A DNA stretch of 64,000 nucleotides from Dokdonia sp. PRO95 (GTDB lineage Bacteria > Bacteroidota > Bacteroidia > Flavobacteriales > Flavobacteriaceae): NCBI RefSeq assembly GCF_000355805.1, contig NZ_CM001837.1, positions 2,841,868 through 2,905,867 of the forward strand, written 5' to 3'. The translations under genes and the position numbers were made by a program. The notes under the pieces were generated by a model, which saw nothing but the letters and a program-made list of their open reading frames with translations, did no database searches and was not told where the DNA came from. This document shows, one piece after another, positions 3,261-62,556 of this stretch (positions are counted from its first letter, which is position 1; each line of letters begins with the position of its first letter).

Positions 3261-3276
3261 CGCTTTCGCGAAAGCT
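3261..3276. repeat. Dispersed palindrome, copy 2 (CGCTTTCGCGAAAGCT)
   Basis: An intergenic copy about 100 bases upstream of the mqo start. The core is exact, and only the last base breaks the 16-base symmetry. The left arm extends to ATTA. Confidence 0.95.
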
Positions 3277-5133: not shown

Positions 5134-5149
5134 CATTTTCGCGAAAGCG
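5134..5149. repeat. Dispersed palindrome, copy 3 (CATTTTCGCGAAAGCG)
   Basis: An intergenic copy between tamL (stop at 5158) and the FAD oxidoreductase gene. The 10-base core is exact and the right arm complete, but the left arm has decayed. Confidence 0.9.
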
Positions 5150-5157
5150 AGATTGTT

Positions 5158-7428
5158 TTAAAACGGATATCCAATAGCAAAGTTAAAAATTGGTTCGTCA
5201 AATTTGAAATCCCATCGCTCGCCCTCTGGTAATGATGGATCGTGAAAAGGCGCTGCGAGATCAAAACGGATCACAAAGCCCTGTACATCTACTCTAAGCC
5301 CAAAACCACCGCCTATTCCAAGTTCATTAATAAAATCTGAGGTGAACTTATCTTTACCCTCAAGATCTTCATTTTCTGTGCTATTCCAAATATTTCCAGC
5401 ATCTACAAAAAAGGCACCCTTGAGGTAATTGAAAATTGGGAAACGATACTCTGCATTTGCCTCTAGCCTGATGTTTCCTATTTGATCAAAGAAGTTTCCG
5501 CCAGATTGGTTTCCAGAAGATGTTCCAGGACCTAAAGAGCGTATTCTAAAAGCACGCACACTATATGGTCCACCAGAATAGTATTGCTTTACAAATGGTA
5601 ATATCTCTGAGTTTCCGTACGCATACCCATATCCTGCAAAGAGTCTCGTCGCGATTTTCTGCTCATTTGCCATATTAAAATGATACCTAAAATCTACATC
5701 TAGCTTTGCAAACTGCGCATATTCTAGTCCTATAAATGTCTTATTTTGAGTGTCTGCATCATCTTTACCTAGCAAACTAACGGCGTTACCTGCAAGCTCA
5801 AAATTAGAATTGAAAAAGATTTGATGTGTTTTTTGCGTATCTACCATCCCATTATAGGTAAAACTGTAATTGAGTCCCGCAATAAACTGCTGATCAAAAC
5901 TCTGTCTTAATAAGGGATTTTCGGTGAGTATATCTTCAAATTCTGTCGTGGTATTAGAGAGTCTCGTATAACTCACAGAAATAGGATTAATACGGTGTGT
6001 GACATATTTATTTGCATCCCACACATAGCCAAACCCTACATTACCAGATAATAAGGTGTATAATTTAGAACGACTCAAATAATCCACGCCGAGTGCTGCA
6101 ACCGTTTTTGGAATATTATACTCAAAAAAATCTGTTGAAATATCAATAGGAAATATCACTCTTGGGAATACGAGTTCGCTGGCCAGACCTAACTCTATAC
6201 TACTTAATGACTCACCTCCTCCTAGTTGTACTTCGTATCCTGCAGATCCTGTGATATTAAGAATCTCTCCGCCGTTAAAAAGATTTCTGTTGCTATAGGT
6301 TAAAGCCAATCCAGGTCCAGCAAAGTTGTTTGATTTGGTCACTGCTTGCACTTCAGCTCGTATGGCTCTTTTATTTAATGGCGACAAGTAAATATTTGCC
6401 TCAAGAATACCCAAGCTATCTGTGCGCAAGCTATCAATCTCGTCATACTGGATATTTACAAATTTATAAGCTCCTATAGTAGATAGTCGTCGCGCAGTGT
6501 TACGGGAGACATCTGGATGATACAATTGCCCTTCTTCAAGTTGTACAAATGGCGCAAGGTATTTAGGTTTAAAATAAAGCTCTTCTTGAATAAAATTAAG
6601 ACTATCAAAGCGAACCACATCAGATTGTAACGAGTCTTTGAGCGCATAATTAGGATACACATTTACCTTGTTTATCTTGTAAGGTACAATGACCTTATTA
6701 GGCACATCCTTCTTAATCTTCAAGAACATATCAAAACGTTTATTGCTGTATTGATTGGTATCTATCTCAAATATTAAAAACGAAGGATTGAAGTTGTAAT
6801 ATCCTTTTCTTTTAAGGAGGTAATCAATGCGATCTCGCTCAAGTTTAAGGTTAGACAAGTCATATCTCATGCCTTTTTCAAGCGGTGAGGAAGCCACCGT
6901 GCTTATCATTTCCCTATAAATGGGCGGTGATAATGTATCGAGTTGATACGTCTCCATGCGGTATGGCGTAGGGACTTTTAAATCATATATGATGGAGGCT
7001 CTTTTTTTTGTCTCGCTTTCGCGAAAGCGTGAACTCACCGTACTATAGAAAAATCCGCGGTTTTCTAGTCTGTTACGTAGTAATGATTCTACTTCAAACT
7101 CCTCTACATCAGATTGATAAACAGGCTCCTCTCCTATCTTTTTATTAAGCCATTTATTGATTACTCCTGGTTTTTCACGCTGTGCTTTGTAATAAACACT
7201 TAAATAAGGATAACCGCCTAAGATTTTAGAATTAGGTGTAGGTCGTAAGACGCCTTCAAGCTCTGTTTGTAGCGAGCTTTGATTTGTGATGGTGCTATCT
7301 GGCGTTATGATAATTTCAGCGCCAGTATATAAACGTTCTCCCTCTGGAATGTACTTTTCAACACTACAAGATGCGCAAAAAGTAATCAAAACTAGAGCTG
7401 AAAAATATGTAGATAATCGGTATTGCAC
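5158..7428 (-). CDS. tamL: TamL: lipoprotein-type TamA/BamA-family outer-membrane assembly protein
   Basis: This 756-residue member of the Omp85 (BamA/TamA) superfamily forms the outer-membrane half of the translocation and assembly module. The N-terminus is a lipoprotein signal with lipobox CASC (C21), which marks the Bacteroidota TamL variant. An N-terminal periplasmic POTRA-like region follows, then a C-terminal 16-strand-type barrel from roughly residue 390. The barrel carries YSGGPYSVRAFRIRSLGPG and ends in an aromatic residue (FNFAIGYPF). The start is GTG at 7428, only three bases after the tamB stop, so the two are surely one operon. A palindrome copy (7014-7029) lies in the periplasmic part and is read as RFRES. 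Confidence 0.9.
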   Translation of the reverse strand: MQYRLSTYFSALVLITFCASCSVEKYIPEGERLYTGAEIIITPDSTITNQSSLQTELEGVLRPTPNSKILGGYPYLSVYYKAQREKPGVINKWLNKKIGEEPVYQSDVEEFEVESLLRNRLENRGFFYSTVSSRFRESETKKRASIIYDLKVPTPYRMETYQLDTLSPPIYREMISTVASSPLEKGMRYDLSNLKLERDRIDYLLKRKGYYNFNPSFLIFEIDTNQYSNKRFDMFLKIKKDVPNKVIVPYKINKVNVYPNYALKDSLQSDVVRFDSLNFIQEELYFKPKYLAPFVQLEEGQLYHPDVSRNTARRLSTIGAYKFVNIQYDEIDSLRTDSLGILEANIYLSPLNKRAIRAEVQAVTKSNNFAGPGLALTYSNRNLFNGGEILNITGSAGYEVQLGGGESLSSIELGLASELVFPRVIFPIDISTDFFEYNIPKTVAALGVDYLSRSKLYTLLSGNVGFGYVWDANKYVTHRINPISVSYTRLSNTTTEFEDILTENPLLRQSFDQQFIAGLNYSFTYNGMVDTQKTHQIFFNSNFELAGNAVSLLGKDDADTQNKTFIGLEYAQFAKLDVDFRYHFNMANEQKIATRLFAGYGYAYGNSEILPFVKQYYSGGPYSVRAFRIRSLGPGTSSGNQSGGNFFDQIGNIRLEANAEYRFPIFNYLKGAFFVDAGNIWNSTENEDLEGKDKFTSDFINELGIGGGFGLRVDVQGFVIRFDLAAPFHDPSLPEGERWDFKFDEPIFNFAIGYPF
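7014..7029. repeat. Dispersed palindrome, copy 4 (perfect), inside tamL
   Basis: A perfect 16-base palindrome. In the tamL frame it is read as RFRES, the only exact copy that uses this third frame. Confidence 0.95.
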
Positions 7429-12471: not shown

Positions 12472-12599
12472 TGAAAATAGAGGGTTTGATAAGCTTTAAC
12501 AAATTAACGCCCATATTCGCTTTTAACATAATTTGACGATGTAATCTTCTGTTAAATAGTATCGAACTACTATTAAAATTTTAACATTGTTGTGAGTTA

Positions 12600-12615
12600 C
12601 GCTTTCGCGAAAGCG
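12600..12615. repeat. Dispersed palindrome, copy 5 (perfect, with extended arms)
   Basis: Intergenic, between the fasciclin gene and tamB. The symmetry extends beyond the 16-mer, with GTTA on the left and TAAT on the right, so this is one of the best copies for defining the full motif. Confidence 0.95.
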
Positions 12616-12689
12616 TAATTAGAGATTGACATGTGATAATCTAAGTATAAACGAACGACTTCTGGATTGGAGAAAAGCTACTAGTACTG

Positions 12690-14533: not shown

Positions 14534-14549
14534 AGTTTTCGCGAAAGCG
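14534..14549. repeat. Dispersed palindrome, copy 6 (AGTTTTCGCGAAAGCG)
   Basis: It fills most of the 48-base gap between the brkB stop (14553) and the alcohol dehydrogenase start (14504). The core is exact, the left arm is degraded, and the right arm extends with TAAC. Confidence 0.93.
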
Positions 14550-17232: not shown

Positions 17233-18633
17233 ATGAATGAGACAGAGCCTACATATCATTGTGTTATAGACGTAGAAACTACGGGAAAAGGAATTAACGG
17301 CAATCGCATTACAGAAATTTGTGCGGTACGCCTTAAAGATGGTGAGGTAGTAGATAAATTTACTTCACTAGTAAACCCAGAACAATACATCCCGCCATTT
17401 ATTACCAATCTTACAGGGATAGATGATGCTATGGTGGCAGATGCACCACTGTTTAATGAAATCGCAGATCGCATTATTGAGATATCCTCTGGAGCCATAT
17501 TTGTAGCACATAATGTCACTTTTGATTTTAATGTATTACGTAGTGAGTTCAAGCGACTCGGTCATTCATTTACTCGAAAGAAACTGTGTACGGTGAGACT
17601 TTCGCGAAAGCTTATACCTAGCCTCTTCAGCTACTCGTTAGGCAATCTGTGCGCCTCTATAGGAGTTCCTCTTAACAATCGTCACAGAGCCGAAGGAGAT
17701 ACAGATGCTACCGTTATTCTTTTTAAAAAATTACTAGTAATGGATGAAGATGGAAAAGTAATGAGTTCCTTCCTCAATGTTCGGTCAAAAGAAGCAACGC
17801 TCCCACCACATTTACCATCGCGCATTATTCAAGAGTTACCAGAAACTGCTGGAATATACTTATTTAAAGATCGTGCGGGTAAAGTGATTTATGTGGGCAA
17901 GGCAATTAATATTAAAAAGAGAGTCCTCTCGCATTTTTACGACAAGAAAAACAAGGAATACTTATTAGGTCAAGAAACCTATCAAATAGATTATGAAGTT
18001 ACTGGTAATGAACTTTGTGCACTATTATTAGAATCTGAATATATCCAGCAATATTATCCAAAGTTTAATAGAGCGCAAAAAATACCTGCTAGTACCTACT
18101 CTATTATGTCCTATGAGAATAGAAAAGGTATCATACAGCTCGCGGTAGCCAAGACAAAATATCGTCATACTGCTACTCAAAAAGTGTACACAAGGGCAAA
18201 AGCGACAGAGCGACTCATGGAGCTGTGTGAGATGTTTGAGTTATGTCCTCGTTTTTGCGGACTTCAAGCAACTTTTGATGAATGCTCGCACTACAGTTTA
18301 AAAAATTGCAAAGGTATTTGTAGTGATAATGAATCTGTGTCTGATTATAATCTCCGAGTTCGAGCGGCATTAGAATCCTTTGATGCAGAAAATGAGAGTT
18401 ACATTATTAAAGAAGATGGTCGTACAGATGATGAAACAGCTTTTATATATATAGAGAAAGGTGTTTATAGAGGTTTTGGTTTTGTTCCTGAGACGGAGCA
18501 GGTGCGTCATTTTGATGAAGTAGCCTCACATTTATTACCTAAAAAAAGTACGTATCATACAGACATGATATTGAGAAGTTATTTACGTAGACATAAAAAC
18601 CCGCTTATTGTATCACTTGCTATTTCTGCTTAA
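17233..18633 (+). CDS. DnaQ-type 3'-5' exonuclease fused to a GIY-YIG (UvrC/Cho-like) nuclease
   Basis: This 466-residue protein combines two nuclease domains. Residues 8-175 form a DEDDh exonuclease as in DNA polymerase III epsilon: DVETTG is motif ExoI, HNVTFDFNVLRSEF is ExoII and HRAEGDTDATV carries the ExoIII His/Asp. Residues 198-285 form a GIY-YIG domain (LPETAGIYLFKDRAGKVIYV, then GKAINIKKRV) like that of UvrC and Cho, followed by a Cys-containing segment (FCGLQ...CSHYSLKNCKGIC). The fusion is known in several bacterial groups and probably takes part in DNA repair, though its role is poorly defined. A palindrome copy encodes LSRKL in the exonuclease part. The next small gene starts two bases after the stop. 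Confidence 0.88.
   Translation: MNETEPTYHCVIDVETTGKGINGNRITEICAVRLKDGEVVDKFTSLVNPEQYIPPFITNLTGIDDAMVADAPLFNEIADRIIEISSGAIFVAHNVTFDFNVLRSEFKRLGHSFTRKKLCTVRLSRKLIPSLFSYSLGNLCASIGVPLNNRHRAEGDTDATVILFKKLLVMDEDGKVMSSFLNVRSKEATLPPHLPSRIIQELPETAGIYLFKDRAGKVIYVGKAINIKKRVLSHFYDKKNKEYLLGQETYQIDYEVTGNELCALLLESEYIQQYYPKFNRAQKIPASTYSIMSYENRKGIIQLAVAKTKYRHTATQKVYTRAKATERLMELCEMFELCPRFCGLQATFDECSHYSLKNCKGICSDNESVSDYNLRVRAALESFDAENESYIIKEDGRTDDETAFIYIEKGVYRGFGFVPETEQVRHFDEVASHLLPKKSTYHTDMILRSYLRRHKNPLIVSLAISA
17597..17612. repeat. Dispersed palindrome, copy 7 (GACTTTCGCGAAAGCT)
   Basis: The exact 10-base core lies at 17600-17609 within the exonuclease domain of the DnaQ/GIY-YIG gene, read as LSRKL. The outer positions deviate from the consensus. 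Confidence 0.9.
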
Positions 18634-21009: not shown

Positions 21010-21318
21010 TAACTCTTTTATCGTATTAAATGAAGTCGCTACAAGAATATCTCGTAACGCTCACGTTTACGCAGTTTAAAATACCATTAAGTCTGTAAAA
21101 GAATTTTGAACTGTGCAATCTACCTTTTGATAAGGTATGCGTGAATATTTGTAAAGATACAAAAAATAAAGTGATTTTTTTGCTTTCGCGAAAGCGTAAT
21201 AACTTATCCACCCCACTACTTCTTGCTTTTAACACCTTTTGTTATCCTTTTCTTATCAATGGGTTAAAGGTCATTTTATTACTTGATTCTGTTCTTAACT
21301 TTATAAAAAACAATAGAT
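21010..21318. other. Gene-free divergent region
   Basis: 309 bases between the cold-shock gene (minus) and the small hydrophilic protein gene (plus). It carries one palindrome copy (21181-21196). I see no reliable promoter and no credible gene; short frames here on both strands have no family features. Confidence 0.55.
21181..21196. repeat. Dispersed palindrome, copy 8 (TGCTTTCGCGAAAGCG)
   Basis: An intergenic copy in a divergent promoter region. Only the first base departs from the consensus, and the right side extends with TAAT. Confidence 0.95.
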
Positions 21319-24790: not shown

Positions 24791-24806
24791 CGCTTTCGCG
24801 AAAGCG
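24791..24806. repeat. Dispersed palindrome, copy 9 (perfect), in the ABC transporter promoter
   Basis: A perfect 16-mer followed by TAAC, beginning 10 bases upstream of a -7 element. Here the site overlaps the -33 region, so a protein bound to it would touch RNA polymerase. Confidence 0.95.
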
Positions 24807-27327: not shown

Positions 27328-27855
27328 GTGAAAGAAACAAACAACATACCGTCTAAAAGAGGTTTTAAAGTTCCTCAGGATTATTTTGACACGAGTCGTG
27401 ATCAAATTCTTGATGATATAACTTTAAAAGCTACATTATCTAGCTCTAGTAATGAGCGCTATGATACTCCTGATGGATATTTTGAGAACTCTAAAAATGA
27501 GATTCTTGCTACGCTTTCGCGAAAGCTTGAAGAAGACAATATACCAGCTCAAGAAACTGGCACTAAAGTAATAACTCTAAAAAGCTATTACTATTCCATG
27601 GCAGGGATTGCAGCTGCCCTCCTACTCCTAGTTAGCATTGTATGGTCACAACTAGACACAACTGCCGGAATTGAGAGTATTGCTATTGCAGAATATCTTG
27701 ATAGCGAAGCAAGTGATCTTGAACAAATAGAATTTGCAGATTGGTTATCTGATGAAGACATAGATGCACTTCAAAATGATATTGCCTTAGACGAATCAAT
27801 TATTATAGACTATCTAGATGATCGCACAGATAGCTACCACTTTTATTTAGATTAA
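27328..27855 (+). CDS. Probable anti-sigma-like membrane protein with a duplicated cytoplasmic motif
   Basis: This 175-residue protein has no named domain that I recognise. It begins with GTG 36 bases after the ECF sigma gene. The N-terminal half contains a twice-repeated motif, GFKVPQDYFDTSRDQIL at residues 12-28 and RYDTPDGYFENSKNEIL at about 46-62. One transmembrane helix follows (about 90-112, YYYSMAGIAAALLLLVSIVW), then an acidic C-terminal part outside the membrane. Position, topology and size fit a sigma-sequestering membrane protein, which is inference from context. The next gene, for a Spy-like periplasmic protein, starts three bases after the stop. A palindrome copy encodes TLSRKL just after the second repeat. 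Confidence 0.7.
   Translation: MKETNNIPSKRGFKVPQDYFDTSRDQILDDITLKATLSSSSNERYDTPDGYFENSKNEILATLSRKLEEDNIPAQETGTKVITLKSYYYSMAGIAAALLLLVSIVWSQLDTTAGIESIAIAEYLDSEASDLEQIEFADWLSDEDIDALQNDIALDESIIIDYLDDRTDSYHFYLD
27512..27527. repeat. Dispersed palindrome, copy 10 (CGCTTTCGCGAAAGCT)
   Basis: Inside the anti-sigma-like gene, read as TLSRKLE. The core is exact and the last base deviates. Confidence 0.93.
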
Positions 27856-28336: not shown

Positions 28337-29449
28337 TTATCTTTTAAAATTAAGCCTGGCTAATGCATTTTTACCTCCCGCATAAGCTGTAGAATCATTT
28401 GCAAATCTTACCGTTAAAAATGGCGCATCAGATAGTTGCTTCCATGAAGCACCTGAGTCGCTTGAGTAAGAAATACCTGTAAATCCAGCTGCAATAATTT
28501 CTTTCCCATTTGAATTCGGAACATACTGCACGCAACTTTTATAACCGTTATTTTCACCAGATGCTGTTATCACCCAGGATTTACCACCGTCGCTAGTAGT
28601 TGCAATATTATCTACGTTGTCCTCAGGTGTAGTATAATCACCTCCATATATAATACCTGTTTTATTGTCATAAAAATCCATGGTATAAGCACCTTGAGTA
28701 TCTTTTCCTTGTGCTACAGGAAGGTTATATATGCTCCATGAAAATCCTTTGTTTGCAGAGTAATACATTCTAGAAGTACCACCACCTGTAATTATCCACG
28801 TTTCATCTCTTATCGTTTTAATATTAGTATTACTTGCGGCAAAAGCTCCTTCTTTTTCTAATTGATTAGGCAGGGACCCACAATCCAGTTTACCCCAGCT
28901 AGTGCCACCATCTCTAGTAATGATAACGGATAAACAACCGTTTACAGAATCCCCTATTGCGATTCCTTCCTCCTCATTCCAAAAGGTCATAGCATCATAA
29001 AAAACTCCCTCTTCTTGTTCAGTATAAACAAGGGATACTTGGTTAGTAGTTCTATCATAGCGGTATAGAAGTGCTGGATTTTCTATAGATAATATAAAAA
29101 ATGCTTTGCTTGTACTAGCAATACTCCTAAAAGCAGGGTTTTTACCTAAGAAATCTATTCTCCCTTTATTTGTAACTTTAAATTGAGAGGCCATCGCTGC
29201 ATCGGTAGATTTGGTTTGATCCAGATTCATCTCATAAATACCGTAGTGACCATTACTACCCGCATACATGACGGCATCATTAGCAACTTCTATTGCTCGT
29301 ATGCTCGTACTATCCTGATGTAAAAATTCGATATCCACTTTCGTGAAAACGTTAGCACCCTCAATTACAGCAGTTTGATTATTATTATTTACATCCTTAC
29401 AAGATGTTACAATTAGAAATAAAAGAAAAAAAGTATATAAAATTCGCAT
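28337..29449 (-). CDS. Lipoprotein with BNR/Asp-box (beta-propeller) repeats
   Basis: This predicted lipoprotein of about 370 residues has lipobox IVTSC (C17, counting from the ATG at 29449). A TTG two codons earlier at 29455 is also possible. The mature part has repeated Asp-box motifs typical of sialidase/YCF48-like beta-propellers: TRDGGTSW, SANKGFSW, TSDGGKSW and SSDSGASW, with about 60-90 residues between them. Proteins of this type in Bacteroidota are often labelled 'oxidoreductase' without evidence, and no catalytic residues of a sialidase are evident. I regard it as a surface or periplasmic propeller of unknown ligand. A decayed palindrome (29336-29351) lies near the N-terminus. Confidence 0.8.
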   Translation of the reverse strand: MRILYTFFLLFLIVTSCKDVNNNNQTAVIEGANVFTKVDIEFLHQDSTSIRAIEVANDAVMYAGSNGHYGIYEMNLDQTKSTDAAMASQFKVTNKGRIDFLGKNPAFRSIASTSKAFFILSIENPALLYRYDRTTNQVSLVYTEQEEGVFYDAMTFWNEEEGIAIGDSVNGCLSVIITRDGGTSWGKLDCGSLPNQLEKEGAFAASNTNIKTIRDETWIITGGGTSRMYYSANKGFSWSIYNLPVAQGKDTQGAYTMDFYDNKTGIIYGGDYTTPEDNVDNIATTSDGGKSWVITASGENNGYKSCVQYVPNSNGKEIIAAGFTGISYSSDSGASWKQLSDAPFLTVRFANDSTAYAGGKNALARLNFKR

Positions 29450-29518: not shown

Positions 29519-30730
29519 ATGAAATTACACAGAAATTTAGTCTTTGCAGCTGTTGATGCATTAGGAATGATATTTAATGATGGAGAACAAGCTGATAAGG
29601 TATTAAGAAAGGTTCTTAAGTTTGATAAAAGATGGGGTTCTCGTGACCGAGGTTTTATTGCGGAGACTGTTTACGACATTGTGCGCTGGCAACGCTTATA
29701 CTCAGAGATTGCAGAAGTAAAAGCACCGTACAGCAGACCTAATTTATTTAGATTATTTGCAGTTTGGGCTACATTAAGAGGTATTGAAGTTCCAGACTGG
29801 AAACAAATGGAACCTATACCTACTCGTAGAATTAAAGGACGTTTTGACGAACTTTCAAAAATTAGAAAATTCAAGGAATCTATTCCAGATTGGATGGATG
29901 AGATGGGTGAGAAAGCTCTTGGTAAAAAGTGGGCTGCAGAGCTTGCTGCTTTAAATACACAGGCACAAGTAGTATTACGAGCAAATACATTAAAAACCAC
30001 TCCAAAGGACTTAAGAAACACCCTTGCAGATCAAGATATAGACACTCGATTATTAGATGGCTATCCTGATGCTGTGGAGCTTGTAGAACGTAAAAATGTA
30101 TTTACTACAGAAGCTTTTAAAAGTGGTTTCTTTGAAGTGCAAGACGCTTCATCACAAAAAGTAGCACGCATGCTTGATGTAAAACCAGGAATGCGCGTTG
30201 TAGATACCTGTGCAGGTGCTGGAGGAAAAACATTACATCTTGCAGCCCTAATGGAAAATAAAGGGCAGATTATCGCTATGGATATCTACGAAGGTAAACT
30301 TAAGGAACTTAAAAGAAGATCTAAGCGAGCTGGAGCTCACAACATAGAGACAAGAGAAATTACATCAACTAAGGTATTTAAAAAATTATATAACACCGCA
30401 GACCGCGTATTAATTGATGCTCCATGTACTGGGCTAGGAACTATTAAGCGTAATCCAGATTTGAAATGGAAATTACAGCCAGAGTTTATAGATAAGGTGG
30501 TGCAAAGGCAAGCAGAATTACTAGATAGCTATAGTAAAATTGTTAAAGACGGCGGTAAAATGCTATATGCTACTTGTTCTATTTTGCCTAGAGAAAACCA
30601 AGAACAAGTACAAGCATTTCTAGCTACAGAACAAGGCCAGAAGTTTCAACTAGATAAGGAAGAAACTGTAAGCCCGGCAAAAAATGGTTACGACGGATTT
30701 TATATGGCTTTGCTTTCGCGAAAGCAATAA
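29519..30730 (+). CDS. RNA (cytosine-5)-methyltransferase, RsmB/NOL1-NOP2-sun family
   Basis: This 403-residue SAM-dependent enzyme forms m5C in RNA, most likely 16S rRNA. The N-terminal half resembles the NusB-like domain of RsmB (VLRKVLKFDKRWGSRDRGFI). The catalytic half has the SAM loop VVDTCAGAGGKTLHLAALME, the active-site pair DAPCTGLG and YATCSILPRENQ, with a Cys in each, and the substrate loop NPDLKWK. The gene ends inside a palindrome copy, so the last residues LLSRKQ and the approach to the stop are encoded by the repeat. A 21-base-pair hairpin lies downstream. The RNA target is not certain. Confidence 0.9.
   Translation: MKLHRNLVFAAVDALGMIFNDGEQADKVLRKVLKFDKRWGSRDRGFIAETVYDIVRWQRLYSEIAEVKAPYSRPNLFRLFAVWATLRGIEVPDWKQMEPIPTRRIKGRFDELSKIRKFKESIPDWMDEMGEKALGKKWAAELAALNTQAQVVLRANTLKTTPKDLRNTLADQDIDTRLLDGYPDAVELVERKNVFTTEAFKSGFFEVQDASSQKVARMLDVKPGMRVVDTCAGAGGKTLHLAALMENKGQIIAMDIYEGKLKELKRRSKRAGAHNIETREITSTKVFKKLYNTADRVLIDAPCTGLGTIKRNPDLKWKLQPEFIDKVVQRQAELLDSYSKIVKDGGKMLYATCSILPRENQEQVQAFLATEQGQKFQLDKEETVSPAKNGYDGFYMALLSRKQ
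30711..30726. repeat. Dispersed palindrome, copy 11 (TGCTTTCGCGAAAGCA), at a gene end
   Basis: A fully symmetric 16-mer in its own right (T/A outer pair), encoding the C-terminal LSRKQ of the methyltransferase just before its stop codon. Confidence 0.94.
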
Positions 30731-34028: not shown

Positions 34029-37000
34029 ATGATCCACTTCTTTGGAAACCCTCAAGGCACTGTTTACGCAGTACAAAGTACACAAGCATTTACACAGGAC
34101 GATACCGCTAAGCTCGTATGGCTTTTTGGCAACTCTCAAAAAATTGAAGCGTCTCATATTGACGCTTTTTTTATTGGACCTAGAGCAGCCATGATTACCC
34201 CATGGAGTACAAATGCTGTAGAGATTACCCAAAACATGGGAATCTCAAATATTATAAGGATAGAAGAGTTTCACGCTTTCGCGAAAGCGGACTCCTCAAC
34301 ACAGCAAGTCCAAACTAACCCTTTCCCATCTATAGAAGATGCTACAGGCGTAATTACAGAAAGCACTCCTGATTATGATCCTATGATCTCTCAAGAGTAC
34401 GCTGCATTAAATCAAGATATTTTTACGGTTAACGTTACTCCAGAATCTATTTTATCTATAGAGGATATTGCGGCATATAATGAGCAAGAAGGGTTATCGT
34501 TAAGTGATGAAGAGGTTGCTTACCTAAATGGTGTAGCTGCCAAAATAGGAAGACCACTTACAGATTCTGAAGTATTTGGTTTTAGCCAAGTAAACTCGGA
34601 GCACTGCCGTCACAAAATCTTTAATGGAACCTTTGTGATTGATGGTGAAGAGATGCCTTCTTCATTATTCAAATTGATTAAAGAAACATCAAAAGCACAT
34701 CCTAATACGATTGTATCTGCATATAAAGATAATGTTGCCTTTATAGAAGGACCACGTGTAACTCAATTTGCTCCTAATACAGCAGATAAACCTGATTTCT
34801 ATTCCGAAAAAGACTTTGACTCTGTTATTTCTATAAAAGCAGAAACTCACAACTTCCCAACTACCGTAGAGCCTTTTAACGGAGCTGCTACAGGTTCTGG
34901 TGGGGAAATACGCGATAGACTTGCTGGTGGTAAAGGATCACTTCCACTTGCTGGAACTGCAGTGTATATGACTCCTTATTCTAGACTTGAAAAAGAACGT
35001 CCTTGGGAACATGGAATGGACGCACGTAAATGGCTTTATCAAAACCCGATAGACCTACTTATTAAAGCTTCAAATGGAGCTTCAGACTTTGGAAACAAGT
35101 TTGGACAGCCTTTAATTGTTGGGTCTGTACTTACTTTTGAGCATCACGAAGACGGTCAGCGTCTAGGGTACGACAAAGTAATTATGCAAGCTGGGGGTAT
35201 TGGTTACGGTAAACGTGAGCAAGCACTTAAAGACACTCCACAAGATGGTGACAAAATTGTAATCTTAGGTGGTGAGAATTATAGAATAGGTATGGGTGGC
35301 GCTGCAGTGTCAAGTGCAGATACGGGAGCTTTTGACTCTGGAATCGAGCTTAACGCGGTACAACGTTCTAATCCAGAGATGCAAAAACGTGCTGCAAATG
35401 CAGTACGTGGTATGGTTGAGAGTGATGTAAACCCAATCGTATCTATACACGATCACGGTGCGGGAGGACATCTTAACTGTCTTTCTGAACTTGTAGAAGA
35501 TACTGGTGGTCTTATCGATCTTGACAAGTTACCTGTAGGAGACCCTACCCTATCTGCAAAGGAAATTATAGGAAACGAGTCGCAAGAACGTATGGGACTT
35601 GTTATAGGAGAGAAAGACATAGATATGCTACAACGCATTGCAGATCGTGAGCGCTCACCTATGTATGAAGTAGGCGACGTTACAAATGATCATCGTTTTA
35701 CATTTAAAAGTAAAACAACAGGCTTAAGCCCTATGGACTTGCACCTAGATGATATGTTTGGGAGCTCTCCAAAAACAATAATGACTGACAAGACGGTCGC
35801 TCGTGATTATAAAAATCCAGAATATCAACTTGAGCATTTCCACGATTATCTAGAACAGGTATTGCAACTAGAAGCTGTGGCTTGTAAAGACTGGCTTACT
35901 AACAAAGTAGATCGCTGTGTAGGTGGTCGCGTTGCAAAACAACAATGTGTCGGCCCATTACAAATACCACTTAACAATGTGGGTGTGATGGCACTTGATT
36001 TTAAAAGTACAGAAGGTATTGCTACTTCTATAGGACACTCACCAGTTTCTGGTCTTATTAATCCCGTAGCAGGAAGTAAAAACAGTATTGCAGAGGCACT
36101 TACAAACATAGTATGGGCTCCTCTTAAAGATGGTTTACAGTCTGTAAGCCTTTCGGCAAACTGGATGTGGCCTTGTAAAAATGAAGGAGAAGATGCTCGT
36201 TTGTATAAGGCTGTAGAAGCAATATCTGCAATGGCAATCAACCTTGGGATAAATGTTCCGACAGGTAAGGATAGTCTCTCAATGAAACAAAAATATCCAG
36301 ATGGTGATGTAATTGCCCCTGGTACTGTGGTTATTTCGGCAGCTGGAAATTGTAATGACATTAATAAGGTAGTAGAACCTGTACTTCAAAAAGATGGAGG
36401 TGCTATTTATTATATTAACATGTCTGGAGATACACATAAACTAGGAGGGTCTAGTTTTGCACAAGTATGTCATGCTATTGGTAATGAAGCGCCAAGTGTT
36501 GTGAGTGATACCGCTTTCGCGAAAGCGTTTAACACCATACAACAGCTCATAAAAGACAATAAAATCCAAGCTGGCCATGATATCGCTAGTGGCGGACTTA
36601 TCACTACCCTACTTGAACTTTGTTTTGCAGATGTAAACTTAGGTGCAAACCTAGACCTGACTGCACTTGGAGAACAAGATCTTATCAAATTACTTTTTTC
36701 TGAAAATGCAGGATTAGTTTTCCAAGCAGACCCATCTGTTGAAAATGTACTTGCTGATAACGGCGTTCCTTTCTTTCAAATAGGAACGGTAACAAGCACT
36801 GCAGAGCTTACAATCAAAAATAGTGGTGTAGAATTGGGACTTAACATTGCATCGCTACGTGACACTTGGTTTAAGACTTCTTATTTGCTAGATAATAAGC
36901 AAACAGCAAATGGTCTTGCAAAAGACCGTTTTGACAATTATAAAGTACAACCATTACAATATACATTCCCTGCACACTTTACAGGAAAGAAACCAGCATT

Positions 37001-40463: not shown

Positions 40464-40479
40464 TGCTTTCGCGAAAGCG
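40464..40479. repeat. Dispersed palindrome, copy 14 (TGCTTTCGCGAAAGCG)
   Basis: Intergenic, between the ICMT-like gene and uvrA. Only the first base is off consensus, and the right arm extends with TAAC. Confidence 0.95.
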
Positions 40480-40584: not shown

Positions 40585-43416
40585 ATGATAGATCACGAAG
40601 AACGTATTGAAGTTTACGGTGCTCGCGCCCACAATCTGAAGAATATAGATGTGATGATACCGAGAGAAAAACTCGTGGTTATTACAGGATTATCTGGAAG
40701 TGGAAAGAGTTCCCTAGCATTTGACACCATCTATGCAGAGGGACAACGTCGTTACATAGAAACGTTTTCTGCATATGCTAGACAATTTCTAGGTGGATTA
40801 GAACGTCCAGATGTTGATCAAATATTAGGACTTTCTCCAGTTATTGCTATCGAACAAAAAACCACTAGTAAAAGTCCGCGATCTACCGTGGGAACCATCA
40901 CAGAAATTTACGATTTTTTACGTCTCCTTTATGCAAGAGCGGCAGATGCTTACTCTTACAATACTGGAGAAAAGATGGTGAGTTATAACGATGAGCAAAT
41001 CCAACAGCTCATTACTGAAAGCTTTGAAGGAAAAAGGATTAATATCCTCGCACCTACCATACGCTCACGTAAAGGGCATTATAGAGAATTATTTGAGCAA
41101 ATTGCAAAACAAGGTTTTTTAAAAGTACGTGTAGATGGTGAAGTAAAGGATATCGTAAAAGGACTTAAAGTAGATCGTTACAAAGTGCATGATATTGAGA
41201 TAGTTGTAGATCGCTTAGTTGTTAAAAAAAGTGATGAAGATGATAAACGCTTGCGCGAAAGCATAAATACCGCAATGTATCACGGTGATGATGTGTTAAT
41301 GGTGCTTGATCAAGACACGCAGGAGGTACGATATTTTAGCCGAAACTTGATGTGTCCTTCTACGGGTATATCATACCCTAATCCAGAGCCTAACAACTTT
41401 TCATTTAACTCACCTAAGGGCGCTTGTCCTAACTGTAATGGTATAGGTGAATTATATAAAGTTAATCCTAAAAAGATTGTTCCAGACCCAACTCTATCTA
41501 TTAATGCTGGCGGTCTAGATCCACATGGACCTAAAAAGAACAACTGGATATTTAAACAATTACAACTCATTGCAGAGAGGTTTGACTTTAAACTTACAGA
41601 CCCAATTGAGAAAATCTCAAAAGAAGCCATGGAATTTATATTCTATGGAGGAAACGAGAAATTCTCTGTTTCTTCAAAGCAATTAGGGGTTACTAGAGAT
41701 TATAAAATAGACTTTGAAGGTGTAGCAAATTTTATAGAAAACACCTATAAGGATAGTGAGTCTACATCTCTCGTAAGATGGGCAAAGGGCTACATGGATA
41801 AAGTAGCTTGTCCTGTTTGTGAAGGTTCAAGACTACGTAAAGAATCGCTCTACTTTAAGGTTGATAATCGTAGTATTGCAGATCTTGCTTCTATGGATAT
41901 ACTGGAGCTACAAGAGTGGTTTAGAACAGTAGAAAAACGATTATCTAGTAAACAACTACAGATTGCATCTGAGATAATTAAAGAAATTAATTCAAGGATT
42001 CAATTCCTTGTAGATGTAGGTCTTACCTATCTCAACTTAAATAGAAGCTCTAAGTCTTTATCTGGTGGAGAAGCACAACGTATCAGACTCGCTACACAGA
42101 TAGGATCGCAACTTGTAGGTGTTTTATATATATTAGATGAGCCTAGCATTGGGTTACATCAACGTGATAATGAAAAACTTATTAATTCGCTTATTTCTCT
42201 ACGTGATATAGGGAATTCTGTCATCGTTGTAGAGCATGATAAAGATATGATTGAGCGTGCAGATCACGTGATTGATATAGGACCACGAGCGGGACGTTTT
42301 GGAGGAGAAATTATAAGTGAGGGAACTCCAGATGATTTACTTAATCACCATACACTCACTGCACAATATCTAAATGGAGAGAGAGAAATTACCATACCCA
42401 AAAAACGACGTAAAGGAAATGGTAAGTTTATCGAGCTTAAAGGAGCTACAGGAAACAATCTTAAAAATGTATCCATTAAAATTCCTTTAGGTAAAATGAT
42501 TGCCGTTACGGGAGTTTCTGGAAGTGGTAAGTCTACATTGATTAATGAGACACTCTACCCTATCATGAATGCTCATTATTTTAATGGTGTAAAGATACCT
42601 ATGCCCTATAAGAGCATTAAGGGACTAGACGAATGCGATAAAGTCATTGATATTAATCAAACACCCATAGGCCGTACACCAAGGTCTAACCCTGCAACAT
42701 ACACCAAGGCCTTTGACGAGATTAGAAGTCTTTTTGCTAAAACTCCTGAAGCCCTTATACGAGGTTATAAACCTGGACGTTTTAGCTTCAACGTTACCGG
42801 TGGTCGCTGCGAGACTTGTAAAGGTGGTGGTTTGAGAGTGATTGAGATGAATTTCTTACCAGACGTTTATGTAGAATGTGAGACCTGTCAAGGAAAACGC
42901 TTTAATAGAGAAACTTTAGAAATTCGCTATAAAGGAAAGTCAATTGCAGACGTACTTGAGATGACGATGACCGAGGCGACAGAATTTTTTGAACCTATTC
43001 CTAAAATATATCGCAAACTCAAAACAATAAAAGACGTAGGATTAGGGTATATTACACTAGGACAACAGAGCACTACCCTCTCTGGAGGTGAAGCGCAGCG
43101 TATCAAACTAGCGTCTGAGCTGAGCAAGAGAGATACTGGAAATACCTTTTATATACTTGATGAACCTACCACAGGTCTTCATTTTGAAGATATTAAGGTA
43201 TTAATGGACGTTCTTAATCGACTTGTAGACAAAGGGAATACTATTCTCATTATTGAGCATAATCTTGACGTGGTTAAAATGGCAGATCACATTATAGATA
43301 TAGGATACGAAGGAGGAAAAGGCGGTGGCGAGGTAGTTGCCATAGGCACCCCAGAACAAATAATTAAAAAAAACAAAGGATATACAGCACAGTTCCTAAA
43401 GAAGGAAATGGCATAG
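40585..43416 (+). CDS. uvrA: UvrABC excinuclease subunit A
   Basis: This 943-residue ATPase finds bulky DNA lesions as a dimer and loads UvrB in nucleotide excision repair. It has two ABC modules. The first has Walker A GLSGSGKSS, signature LSGGEAQRIRLATQIG and Walker B LYILDEPSIGLH. The second has GVSGSGKST, LSGGEAQRIKLASELS and FYILDEPTTGLH. Zinc-binding Cys clusters are visible in CPNCNGIGEL, CPVCEGSRLR and CETCKGGG...CETCQGKR. The length is typical. A one-mismatch palindrome (41248-41263) is read RLRES. TAAATTTG at 40560-40567 is a possible -7 element. The LOG-family gene follows after 47 bases. Confidence 0.97.
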   Translation: MIDHEERIEVYGARAHNLKNIDVMIPREKLVVITGLSGSGKSSLAFDTIYAEGQRRYIETFSAYARQFLGGLERPDVDQILGLSPVIAIEQKTTSKSPRSTVGTITEIYDFLRLLYARAADAYSYNTGEKMVSYNDEQIQQLITESFEGKRINILAPTIRSRKGHYRELFEQIAKQGFLKVRVDGEVKDIVKGLKVDRYKVHDIEIVVDRLVVKKSDEDDKRLRESINTAMYHGDDVLMVLDQDTQEVRYFSRNLMCPSTGISYPNPEPNNFSFNSPKGACPNCNGIGELYKVNPKKIVPDPTLSINAGGLDPHGPKKNNWIFKQLQLIAERFDFKLTDPIEKISKEAMEFIFYGGNEKFSVSSKQLGVTRDYKIDFEGVANFIENTYKDSESTSLVRWAKGYMDKVACPVCEGSRLRKESLYFKVDNRSIADLASMDILELQEWFRTVEKRLSSKQLQIASEIIKEINSRIQFLVDVGLTYLNLNRSSKSLSGGEAQRIRLATQIGSQLVGVLYILDEPSIGLHQRDNEKLINSLISLRDIGNSVIVVEHDKDMIERADHVIDIGPRAGRFGGEIISEGTPDDLLNHHTLTAQYLNGEREITIPKKRRKGNGKFIELKGATGNNLKNVSIKIPLGKMIAVTGVSGSGKSTLINETLYPIMNAHYFNGVKIPMPYKSIKGLDECDKVIDINQTPIGRTPRSNPATYTKAFDEIRSLFAKTPEALIRGYKPGRFSFNVTGGRCETCKGGGLRVIEMNFLPDVYVECETCQGKRFNRETLEIRYKGKSIADVLEMTMTEATEFFEPIPKIYRKLKTIKDVGLGYITLGQQSTTLSGGEAQRIKLASELSKRDTGNTFYILDEPTTGLHFEDIKVLMDVLNRLVDKGNTILIIEHNLDVVKMADHIIDIGYEGGKGGGEVVAIGTPEQIIKKNKGYTAQFLKKEMA

Positions 43417-44161: not shown

Positions 44162-44177
44162 CGCTTTCGCGAAAGCG
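44162..44177. repeat. Dispersed palindrome, copy 15 (perfect, extended left arm)
   Basis: Intergenic, nine bases after the LOG gene stop. The left arm extends to GTTA. No T run follows, so it is not an obvious terminator despite its position. Confidence 0.95.
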
Positions 44178-49701: not shown

Positions 49702-49737
49702 AAAACGAGATACATTAATTTGTATCTCGTTTTTTTT
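49702..49737 (+). terminator. Rho-independent terminator of the E1 gene
   Basis: A 13-base-pair stem AAAACGAGATACA (49702-49714), a 6-base loop, then TGTATCTCGTTTT and T residues to 49737. A one-mismatch palindrome copy (49737-49752) abuts the T run. Confidence 0.92.
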
Positions 49738-49752
49738 GCATTCGCGAAAGCG
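49737..49752. repeat. Dispersed palindrome, near copy (TGCATTCGCGAAAGCG)
   Basis: One mismatch in the core (ATTCGCGAAA). It lies between the E1 terminator and the convergent HD-protein gene, and is followed by TAAT as in exact copies. Confidence 0.75.
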
Positions 49753-53168: not shown

Positions 53169-53918
53169 ATGCGATACGGTATTTGCCAGCTTAGTATAGT
53201 CCCTATGCGCGCCGAACCTTCAGATCCTAGCGAACTTGTAAACCAAGTTCTATATGGTGAACATTTTAAGGTTGTGGAGCAACGCAAGCAATGGAGCCGT
53301 ATTAAACTTTCTCATGACAAATATGAGGGATGGATTGATAATAAGCAATACATAGAGATTAGTGAAGAGGAGTACGCTTTCGCGAAAGCACAACAAGCAA
53401 CACTAACCACTGATCCTGTACAATTTATTACAACAGAACATAATCAACTACTCACGGTAGTATTAGGTTCTTCTGTTGAAAATATTGCGCTTCTTAAAGA
53501 TTCTTATGATGGTAATAGTCACACTGGAAAAACCTCCAGAACGCAGCTTGTGGAAACAGCACTACTCTATCTGAAAACTCCGTATTTATGGGGTGGTAGG
53601 ACAACCTTTGGTATAGATTGTAGTGGTTTTACTCAAATGGTATATCGACTTAATGGCTTCGTCCTAAAAAGAGATGCTTCACAGCAAGCAACACAAGGTG
53701 AGGCATTAAGTTTTATAGAGGAAAGTGAACCTGGTGATCTAGCCTTTTTTGACAATGCCGAGGGATTAATTACCCATGTAGGAATTATCATGGAAGATAA
53801 TTATATCATACATGCTCATGGAGAAGTGAGAATTGATCGATTAGATCATTCTGGTATTTATAATGTTCATAAGGGTATACACACTCACAAATTGAGAGTC
53901 ATTAAGAAAATTATCTAG
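53169..53918 (+). CDS. NlpC/P60 (C40) cell-wall peptidase with an SH3-like domain
   Basis: This 249-residue protein has an N-terminal SH3-like region (MRYGICQLSIVPMRAEPSDP, then VLYGEHFKVVEQRKQWSRIKL). A C-terminal NlpC/P60 domain follows, with the Cys-His-His triad: DCSGF (C151), GLITHVGIIM and IIHAHGEVRID. Such enzymes cut the gamma-D-glutamyl-diamino acid bond in peptidoglycan stem peptides. There is no obvious signal peptide, so it may act on recycled muropeptides in the cytoplasm or leave by another route. A palindrome copy (53375-53390) encodes AFAKA in the linker. It ends at a bidirectional terminator shared with the TPR gene. Confidence 0.9.
   Translation: MRYGICQLSIVPMRAEPSDPSELVNQVLYGEHFKVVEQRKQWSRIKLSHDKYEGWIDNKQYIEISEEEYAFAKAQQATLTTDPVQFITTEHNQLLTVVLGSSVENIALLKDSYDGNSHTGKTSRTQLVETALLYLKTPYLWGGRTTFGIDCSGFTQMVYRLNGFVLKRDASQQATQGEALSFIEESEPGDLAFFDNAEGLITHVGIIMEDNYIIHAHGEVRIDRLDHSGIYNVHKGIHTHKLRVIKKII
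53375..53390. repeat. Dispersed palindrome, copy 16 (CGCTTTCGCGAAAGCA)
   Basis: Inside the NlpC/P60 gene, in the linker between SH3 and catalytic domains, read as YAFAKAQ. Confidence 0.93.
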
Positions 53919-55311: not shown

Positions 55312-57858
55312 CTATTCTTCTTCTTCAGAAGAGTTTTCGTTTTGGGTTGTTTCTGAAGCAGTTGTCCCTCCTTCTACCGGAGTTCCATCTACTGTGTCAT
55401 CTTCATCATCTATATCGTCCTCATCACTTTTTACTTTCGCGACAGCGGCAATAGAATCGTTTCCTTTAAGGTTGATAAGTCGTACTCCTTGTGTTGCACG
55501 CCCCATAACTCTTAGTGAAGCTACTTCCATTCTTATAGCGATACCTGACTTATTGATAATCATAAGATCATCTGCATCAGTAACGTTTTTAATAGATACT
55601 AGTTCTCCAGTCTTTTCGGTAACAGAGATTGTTTTTACTCCTTTACCTCCACGGTTTGTAATTCTGTAATCTTCAAGACTACTACGCTTACCATACCCTT
55701 TTTCTGAAACAACTAGGATATTACTTTCTGTATCGTTTACAGACACCATTCCTACTACTTCATCTTCATCATTAGCAAGAGTTATGCCACGAACACCAGA
55801 GGCGTTTCTTCCCATAGGTCTTGTCTTACTTTCCTCAAAGCGTATTGCCTTACCAGATTTAAGCGCAAGCATCACTTGACTCTCTCCCGTTGTAAGCTTT
55901 GCAGATAGTAGCTCATCATTGTCCTTAATAGTAATCGCGTTGATACCATTAGTACGAGGACGTGAGTATTGCTCTAGCGCTGTTTTCTTTACTTGTCCTT
56001 TTTTGGTCGCCATAATGATGTAGTGATTATTTATATAATCTTCATCTTTAAGGTCTCCTGTACATACAAATGCTTTTACCTCGTCATCTTGCTCAATATT
56101 AATAAGGTTCTGGATAGCTCTACCTTTTGAAGTCTTACTTCCTTCTGGTATTTCAAATACACGCATCCAGAAACATTTACCCTTTTGTGTAAAGAATAGC
56201 ATATACTGGTGGTTAGTACCCACAAATAGATGCTCTAAGAAATCTTCATTACGAGTGGTAGATGCTTTTGTACCTACTCCTCCTCTATTTTGAGTTTTGT
56301 ATTCTGTAAGTGATGTACGTTTTATGTAACCAGCATTTGAGATAGTAATCACTACCTTTTTATCTGGAATAAGATCTGTGATGCTTACATCACCTCCTGC
56401 ATACTCTATAATAGAGCGACGCTCATCTCCATACTTATCTTTTATTTCTTGAAGCTCTTCTCTAATAATAGACATACGACGCTCCTTCTTTGCAAGGATA
56501 TCTTTTAAGTCTTCTATAGTCTTCATTATCTCTTCGTACTCACTACGTAGTTTGTCTTGCTCCAGACCTGTAAGCTGGCGTAAACGCATCTCTACGATAG
56601 CCTTTGCTTGAATCTCTGAGAGTTTAAAACGCTCTATTAAGTTTTGTCTCGCCTCATCACCATTTGCACTTGCGCGTATGATGGCAATTACTTCATCTAT
56701 ATTATCTGAAGCAATGATAAGACCTTCTAGTATGTGGGCACGAGCTTCTGCTTTTTTAAGCTCAAACTCTGTTCTTCTCACTACAACCTCGTGGCGGTGT
56801 TCAACAAAGTGGTGTATCATATCCTTAAGATTTAACATCTCAGGACGCCCGTTTACAAGAGCAATGTTATTTACACTAAATGATGATTGTAGTGCCGTGT
56901 ACTTATATAACTTGTTAAGTACGATATTTGGGATAGCATCACGTTTTATAACATAAACGATACGCATACCATTACGGTCTGACTCGTCACGTATTGCAGA
57001 TATACCCTCGATCTTCTTATCGTTGATCATATCGGCCGTTTTCTTAATCATATCAGCCTTATTGACTTGATATGGTATTTCGGTCACAATGATACACTCT
57101 CTACCTTTTACTTCTTCAAACTCTGCCTTTGCGCGCATTACAACACGACCACGCCCTGTTTTAAAAGCCTCACGTACTCCGTCATAACCATAAATCGTTC
57201 CTCCGGTAGGAAAATCTGGAGCCTTTACGTGCTCCATAAGTTCATCTATAGTAACGTCATTATTATCTATGTAAGCGTGTATACCGTCTACAACCTCAGA
57301 AAGGTTGTGTGGTGGCATATTAGTCGCCATACCCACAGCAATACCAGATGCACCATTTATAAGTAACCCTGGTACACGTGTAGGTAATACGGTAGGTTCT
57401 TTAAGTGTATCATCAAAGTTAAGTTGGTGATCTACTGTGTCTTTTTCAATATCTGCAAGCATATCTTCAGATATCTTGCGCATTCTAGCCTCGGTATAAC
57501 GCATTGCTGCTGGGCTATCACCATCTACAGACCCAAAGTTACCTTGACCATCTACAAGCATATAACGTAAACTCCACTCTTGAGCCATACGCACCATTGC
57601 ATCATATACAGAGGTGTCGCCGTGTGGGTGATACTTACCTAGTACCTCTCCTACTATTCTTGCAGATTTTTTGTGAGCACCACTCGCTCGTATTCCTAAC
57701 TCATGCATTCCGTAAAGAACACGACGGTGTACTGGTTTGAGACCATCACGTACGTCAGGTAGTGCACGTGATACGATAACTGACATCGAGTAATCGATGT
57801 AAGCAGATTTCATTTCATCTTCAATATTAATCGAGATCAGCTTTTCTCCTTCAGCCAT
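55312..57858 (-). CDS. gyrA: DNA gyrase subunit A
   Basis: This 848-residue type II topoisomerase subunit cuts and religates DNA during negative supercoiling. The catalytic Tyr is Y121 in [10 protein letters not shown]. The quinolone region reads [15 protein letters not shown], with Thr82, Ser83 and Asp86 at the positions of E. coli Ser83, Ala84 and Asp87. The C-terminal pinwheel follows, with a GyrA-box-like sequence in [14 protein letters not shown] (the Q..GG.G pattern of gyrase). A very acidic tail ([12 protein letters not shown]...NSSEEEE) ends the protein. A decayed palindrome (55432-55447) lies just before the tail. A perfect palindrome lies upstream, between gyrA and the divergent clpC. 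Confidence 0.97.
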
Positions 57859-57935: not shown

Positions 57936-57951
57936 CGCTTTCGCGAAAGCG
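57936..57951. repeat. Dispersed palindrome, copy 17 (perfect), between gyrA and clpC
   Basis: A perfect 16-mer in the divergent promoter region, about 78 bases upstream of gyrA and 159 bases before the clpC ATG. Confidence 0.95.
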
Positions 57952-62540: not shown

Positions 62541-62556
62541 CGCTTTCGCGAAAGCA
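62541..62556. repeat. Dispersed palindrome, copy 18 (CGCTTTCGCGAAAGCA)
   Basis: Located 29 bases upstream of the SDR start codon, in the divergent region. The core is exact and the last base deviates. Confidence 0.93.

Follow-up and report, generated by a model that had tools for sequence, protein, structure and literature searches.

The genome of Dokdonia sp. PRO95 (G000; a single contig of 3,305,093 bases) contains 577 exact copies of the 16-mer CGCTTTCGCGAAAGCG against none of its reversed control, and these copies are the core of a longer, two-fold symmetric element that is evenly spaced along the chromosome and conserved at the DNA level in a relative. We suggest, with a probability of somewhat less than 0.4, that this element is a site of about 50 bp bound by a putative dimeric protein common to Dokdonia and Nonlabens, with a role that would extend over the whole chromosome. 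The analysis started from a stretch of 64,000 nucleotides at 2,841,868–2,905,867 of the contig, hereafter called the window.

A scan of the window at up to three mismatches detected 22 sites, compared with 0.11 expected. Exact intergenic 16-mers lie at 12600–12615, 24791–24806 (TAAC after), 44162–44177 (GTTA before) and 57936–57951, with the copy at 12600 carrying GTTA before it (12596–12599) and TAAT after it (12616–12619); its full footprint, judging from the flank profiles described below, would cover 12583–12632, about 25 bases on each side of the centre. Exact copies in coding sequence were found at 1371–1386 and 7014–7029, and two more lie in purL (34274–34289 and 36512–36527). The sites with one mismatch are intergenic at 3261–3276 (ATTA before), 21181–21196 (TAAT after) and 40464–40479 (TAAC after), and coding at 27512–27527, 53375–53390 and 62541–62556. 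Two mismatches were observed in the intergenic sites 5134–5149 and 14534–14549 (TAAC after), in each of which one CGC half is replaced, in the coding sites 30711–30726 and 41248–41263, and at 49737–49752 between converging genes (TAAT after), with one of the two falling within the inner ten bases at 41248 and at 49737. Three mismatches occur in the coding sites 17597–17612, 29336–29351 and 55432–55447, and the latter two, each with one change in the inner ten bases, are doubtful members.

The copies were aligned from a sample of 60 stretches, each of 20 kb, taken from along the chromosome, together with the window, amounting to 1.264 of 3.305 Mb (38%) with 500 N letters, in which a simple codon-usage ORF caller mapped 1116 genes and 90% coding sequence. 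The inner 10-mer TTTCGCGAAA was found 385 times in this sample, compared with about 1.4 expected from base composition, and 383 of these cores have full 30-base flanks, 184 being intergenic and 199, about half, lying inside genes. Exact 16-mers with 20-base flanks numbered 210, comprising 97 intergenic copies, 112 coding copies and one at a gene edge that was left out of both classes. The centre TTTCGCGAAA is nearly invariant and is extended outward by CGC/GCG; among 87 16-mers with a single mismatch, the change falls on the outermost core base in 72 and within the inner ten bases in only seven.

The preliminary description had proposed that the core is extended by GTTA on the left and TAAC on the right to a full site of 24 bases, and the flanking tetranucleotides that it recorded at 12600, 24791, 40464, 21181, 49737, 44162 and 3261 are all present. 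The arms were confirmed, with corrections: the flanks remain informative with hundreds of copies aligned, and the arm positions carry information in the intergenic and genic copies aligned separately. The fixed form of the arms did not hold, as the exact 24-mer occurs only twice in the genome versus 577 exact 16-mers, and the consensus over both half-sites of the intergenic exact copies is (A/G)(T/G)TA. Reading outward from the core, the intergenic arm has A (0.84), T (0.84), T (0.62) or G (0.28), and A (0.43) or G (0.31). Among intergenic half-sites, 34 of 194 carry GTTA (17.5%, with a background of 0.56% between genes); among coding half-sites the figure is 5 of 224 (2.2%; background 0.36%), and TA stands on both sides in 47 of the 97 intergenic and 11 of the 112 coding copies. 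With the two half-sites of one copy taken as independent, here and in the flank tests below, the classes differ strongly at the two inner arm positions (p 2.5e-14 and 5.6e-8), not at the third (p 0.12) and weakly at the fourth (p 0.012). The suggestion that coding copies lack the arms is thus borne out at the inner positions, which are weaker in genes, but the arms are partly kept there.

The element was also found to be longer than the 24 bases proposed, reaching to about 25 bases on either side of the centre. Positions were numbered from TTTCGCGAAA, with 0 for the base immediately to the left of the centre. On the 5′ side of the core, on both strands and in both classes, C accounts for only 0.04–0.10 of the bases at most positions between −11 and −22, and G and T are enriched where C is depleted (383 copies). 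The bias has p < 1e-6 at most positions, with the exceptions of intergenic −22 (2e-5) and coding −14 (0.25) and −20 (1.3e-3), and it fades out between about −25 and −30. The 3′ flank is A/C-rich on both strands, not T-rich, and no shared sequence is conserved past the biased flanks in the alignment of the sample copies.

The two halves of the site vary independently; binding by a symmetric protein would produce this pattern, and a hairpin would not. Matching between the left and right arms within a copy, analyzed at 16 symmetric position pairs, showed no excess over shuffling, with the highest z reaching +0.9 in the 383 Dokdonia copies and +1.4 in 62 Nonlabens copies and several pairs being slightly negative, down to z −3.0; this test used 30 of the 37 named loci from the pattern scan given below, leaving out six from Dokdonia and one Flavobacteriaceae MAG, and excluded the sites that fit the search pattern itself. 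A hairpin or cruciform would give a clear excess of arm matching, and its absence therefore argues against a hairpin. Furthermore, 70 of the 383 cores are asymmetric, with the CGC half intact on one side and replaced on the other; the replaced half has a preference of its own, roughly TCANAT where TTACGC is expected. Among the 43 intergenic ones, 17 have a stop codon no more than 20 bases from the intact half and five have one that close to the replaced half. The window holds this type at 5134 and 14534. The earlier interpretation as a protein-binding palindrome is partly supported, in that the flank information, the weaker inner arms of coding copies and the independent halves agree with it, but the fixed 24-base consensus does not, and the binder is a putative one.

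The cores are spaced more evenly than expected by chance. Only 27 of 324 neighbouring pairs in the G000 sample are less than 1 kb apart, against 101.1 under a null in which every stretch retains its own counts of coding and intergenic sites, and none of 1000 simulations was as low. The same repulsion was observed in G164, of the same genus (71 cores in 220 kb; CV 0.69), and in the Nonlabens-like genome G010 (30 cores in 160 kb; CV 0.44), with 0 of 4000 simulations in each. When the chromosome is divided into 11 bins, the cores show no departure from uniform density (p 0.90). Their density amounts to 1.45 per kb between genes versus 0.175 in genes, and 26% of stop-side distances place the core 10–20 bases past a stop codon, against 10% for placement within the same gaps.

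Conservation was analyzed by comparing G000 with 220 kb of G164 over HSPs of 300 bp or longer, an approach that can miss non-aligning places. With gaps counted as changes, 20 of 23 aligned G000 cores are unchanged, compared with 11,018 of 67,808 other 10-base windows (16.2%); the reverse direction also gave 20 of 23, leaving three of 23 cores without a partner each way. Of 11 coding cores in 55 pairs of orthologous genes, 10 show no change. Where a residue is identical in both proteins, the codon is the same in 53 of 58 cases within sites, compared with 8716 of 15,046 (58%) elsewhere. The purL site at 34274 lies within an approximately 12-codon stretch, HAFAKADSSTQQ, that is absent from most of the 30 homologues compared. 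The protein sequence of a conserved enzyme is apparently paying here for a DNA signal. The second purL site, at 36512, is read as AFAKA within a block that homologues align nearly without gaps; G010 has the core at the same place, and 29 genera without the motif genome-wide have other residues.

The range of the motif is patchy. Among 149 family members, taken as one per genus from a larger group, CTTTCGCGAAA is genome-wide in only two, G000 (922/912) and G010 (589/592), the others having at most 24, and we regard this range as patchy because the PurL of G010 is 69% identical to that of the window while many genera without the motif reach 74–81%. Within the genomes searched, the system is thus confined to two marine genera and absent from relatives with a closer PurL. 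All 18 genomes searched in the genus of the window, G000 included, contain exact 16-mers, ranging from 138 to 711 per genome. A scan of named genomes for GTTMCGC...GCGKAAC, a longer pattern that misses other dialects and in which records near G000 are possibly left out, returned 37 stretches, with 28 from Nonlabens, six from Dokdonia, two from 'Flavobacteria bacterium BBFL7' and one from a Flavobacteriaceae MAG. Loci of Nonlabens xylanidelens match G010 at 87–93%. The lineages differ in dialect: the base adjoining the core is C or T in Nonlabens where Dokdonia has A, and in Nonlabens a T recurs at −10, −13, −16 and −19, most strongly in G010 and more weakly in the others.

Exact copies were also obtained from 17 other family members, with 1 to 12 each, and in nine of those genera (16 stretches, L170–L185) they lie in gene clusters at matching positions. 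Seven proteins tested from the cluster of G076 comprise two P-type ATPases, of which one carries heavy-metal domains, together with an AcrB-family pump, an outer-membrane efflux protein, a CusB/HlyD-type protein and a multicopper oxidase; the seventh had no convincing match. In 183 comparisons of sites between hosts, made in both directions so that the same sites enter repeatedly, 112 were exact, 41 had one or two differences and 30 had at least four, with flanks 82% identical. We infer that a mobile copper-resistance island took up its sites in a motif-bearing host and that these are now partly decaying elsewhere, so the motif might serve as a fingerprint of the donor in horizontal transfer.

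In the reading that we favour, the site would consist of the TTTCGCGAAA centre, the CGC/GCG extensions, the (A/G)(T/G)TA arms and a G/T-rich, C-poor 5′ track on each strand, and it would be read as double-stranded DNA by a symmetric, presumably dimeric, DNA-binding protein. Selection would maintain roughly one site in every 3 kb along the entire chromosome, and a new site near an existing one would therefore bring nothing. The likeliest role would be in chromosome organisation or maintenance, for instance as a nucleoid-structuring or condensin-guiding site. About 1000 long sites, evenly placed and kept amid changing surroundings, suggest that something genome-wide depends on them. Counted against a binding site, the cores inside genes and the peptide inserted in PurL would also fit a molecular drive without benefit, and, whichever way the two genomes are compared, three of the 23 aligned cores lack a partner.

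Protein families were searched in 39 genomes, namely 11 Dokdonia, G010 and 27 genera without the genome-wide motif, and the searches covered the named families only. Noc and parS sites are 16-bp palindromes with TTTC...GAAA halves, and in this respect they resemble the present motif. Known Noc sites are absent from the terminus, a gap that the uniform Dokdonia cores do not share, and the motif further differs in its roughly 1000 chromosome-wide sites and in the spacing of its half-sites. A single ParB match was obtained in G010 and in nine of the 11 Dokdonia, the other two, G158 and G163, having two each; genomes without the motif also have one or two. A Noc-like paralogue therefore does not account for the motif, and no ParB paralogue tracking it was found over the 39 genomes.

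Among the alternatives, it is possible, though we hold it with real doubt, that the motif is a self-marking site of Bacteroidota that can be read from both directions and carries G/T loading tracks, serving either pilus-independent uptake or a two-way, Chi-like stop in repair; if true, such a site would be a class previously undescribed. A DNA-uptake sequence like the USS of Haemophilus or the DUS of Neisseria, multiplied by biased uptake and recombination (molecular drive), is rather unlikely, even though the likenesses are many: a similar copy number (about 1000 or more), genic and intergenic placement, even spacing, composition-biased flanks beside the core, lineage dialects and the presence of the motif in gene islands of other genera. 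For uptake sequences, even spacing is attributed to Karlin et al. and molecular drive is described (PMC1939737, PMC7811141), with the distribution on the chromosome called uneven in the introduction of one and relatively even in its discussion (PMC7811141). A preference for own DNA in transformation exists in the flavobacterium Riemerella columbina, with the signal left unidentified (PMC7965970). The motif is palindromic and two-sided, but the known uptake sequences, as described in PMC1939737, are not palindromes.

The pilus/type II ATPase family PF00437 also speaks against uptake of this kind. It was strong in five of the 11 Dokdonia (G152, G158, G161, G163 and G165) and present in nine of the 27 genera without the genome-wide motif, but had no match over the cut-off in the other six Dokdonia, G000 included, or in G010; those six carry 505–711 copies against 230–576 in the five with the family, and the sites are conserved between G000 and G164, both of which are without it. 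A pilus-driven uptake sequence was accordingly rejected, as the ATPase is missing where the motif is commonest. The ComEA-like HHH_3 family (PF12836) was found in 38 of 39 genomes and is therefore uninformative. The pattern as a whole matches uptake sequences best, yet G000 has no match to the pilus ATPase and the motif is symmetric, and we therefore keep to a bound site, with modest confidence.

Known Chi sites are short (5–8 bases) and directional, occur in about 1000 dispersed copies and have a G/T-rich strand. A palindromic, two-way counterpart, at which a break-repair nuclease arriving from either side would stop degrading and the G/T-rich 5′ track of each strand would become the first recombinase-coated stretch of the 3′ tail, seems unlikely to us. 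The number of dispersed copies and their regular spacing agree with this, the G/T-richness falls precisely on the strand that would form the 3′ tail from either direction, and the T at every third base in G010, weaker in other Nonlabens, is of the same tenor. However, the Dokdonia motif is long and palindromic, and its independent halves and asymmetric sites resemble a dimer on duplex DNA more closely.

It is less probable still that the motif is a HIP1-like, highly iterated palindrome that an orphan DNA methyltransferase, together with a coupled bias of mismatch repair, both creates and maintains, as in the model that PMC4390886 presents for the cyanobacterial palindrome GCGATCGC. The palindromic form, the enormous over-representation, the restriction to some genera and the C:G-rich centre all agree with such an origin, but HIP1 has 8 bp, whereas the Dokdonia motif has 16–24 bp plus biased flanks and carries about 50 bp of information. 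No methyltransferase tracks the motif in the three families searched over the 39 genomes: PF00145 had no match over the cut-off in six of the 11 Dokdonia, which weakens C5 methylation in particular, and the two N6/N4 families were likewise inconsistent, PF01555 being found in none of the 11 Dokdonia but in G010, and PF02086 in eight of the 11 (only just in G152) but not in G010. None of the three was over the cut-off in G154 and G156, which carry 505 and 556 copies. The usual suspects, that is a pilus ATPase in its own genome, a methyltransferase of these families and a ParB paralogue, are lacking. Identification of the binder would uncover a new system for chromosome organisation, uptake or repair.

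A transcription terminator, RNA hairpin or regulatory operator at gene ends is improbable; the higher intergenic density and the excess of cores just past stop codons would suit it, but the left and right arms show no compensation, the A/C-rich 3′ flank has no T-run, about half of the cores lie in genes and no Rfam match over the gathering score was obtained in the window. Copies of a small mobile element of the REP/MITE type are hardly credible, even with the purL site at 34274 sitting in a lineage-specific insertion, as the copies share nothing past the motif and its biased flanks, their spacing is too regular and the alignment of homologues around the second purL site is almost free of gaps.

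Among the full-text literature matches listed, judged by their titles and the beginnings of their abstracts, no earlier account of the motif was found; those matching the motif sequence itself contained the inner 10-mer only. Other over-represented palindromes were sought in 40 kb from each of 10 genera without the motif, and none was comparable. In the window itself, a second palindrome, AAGCGCTT, occurs seven times; the 1.264 Mb sample contains 42 copies against 14.3 expected from composition, and its excess genome-wide is therefore only mild.
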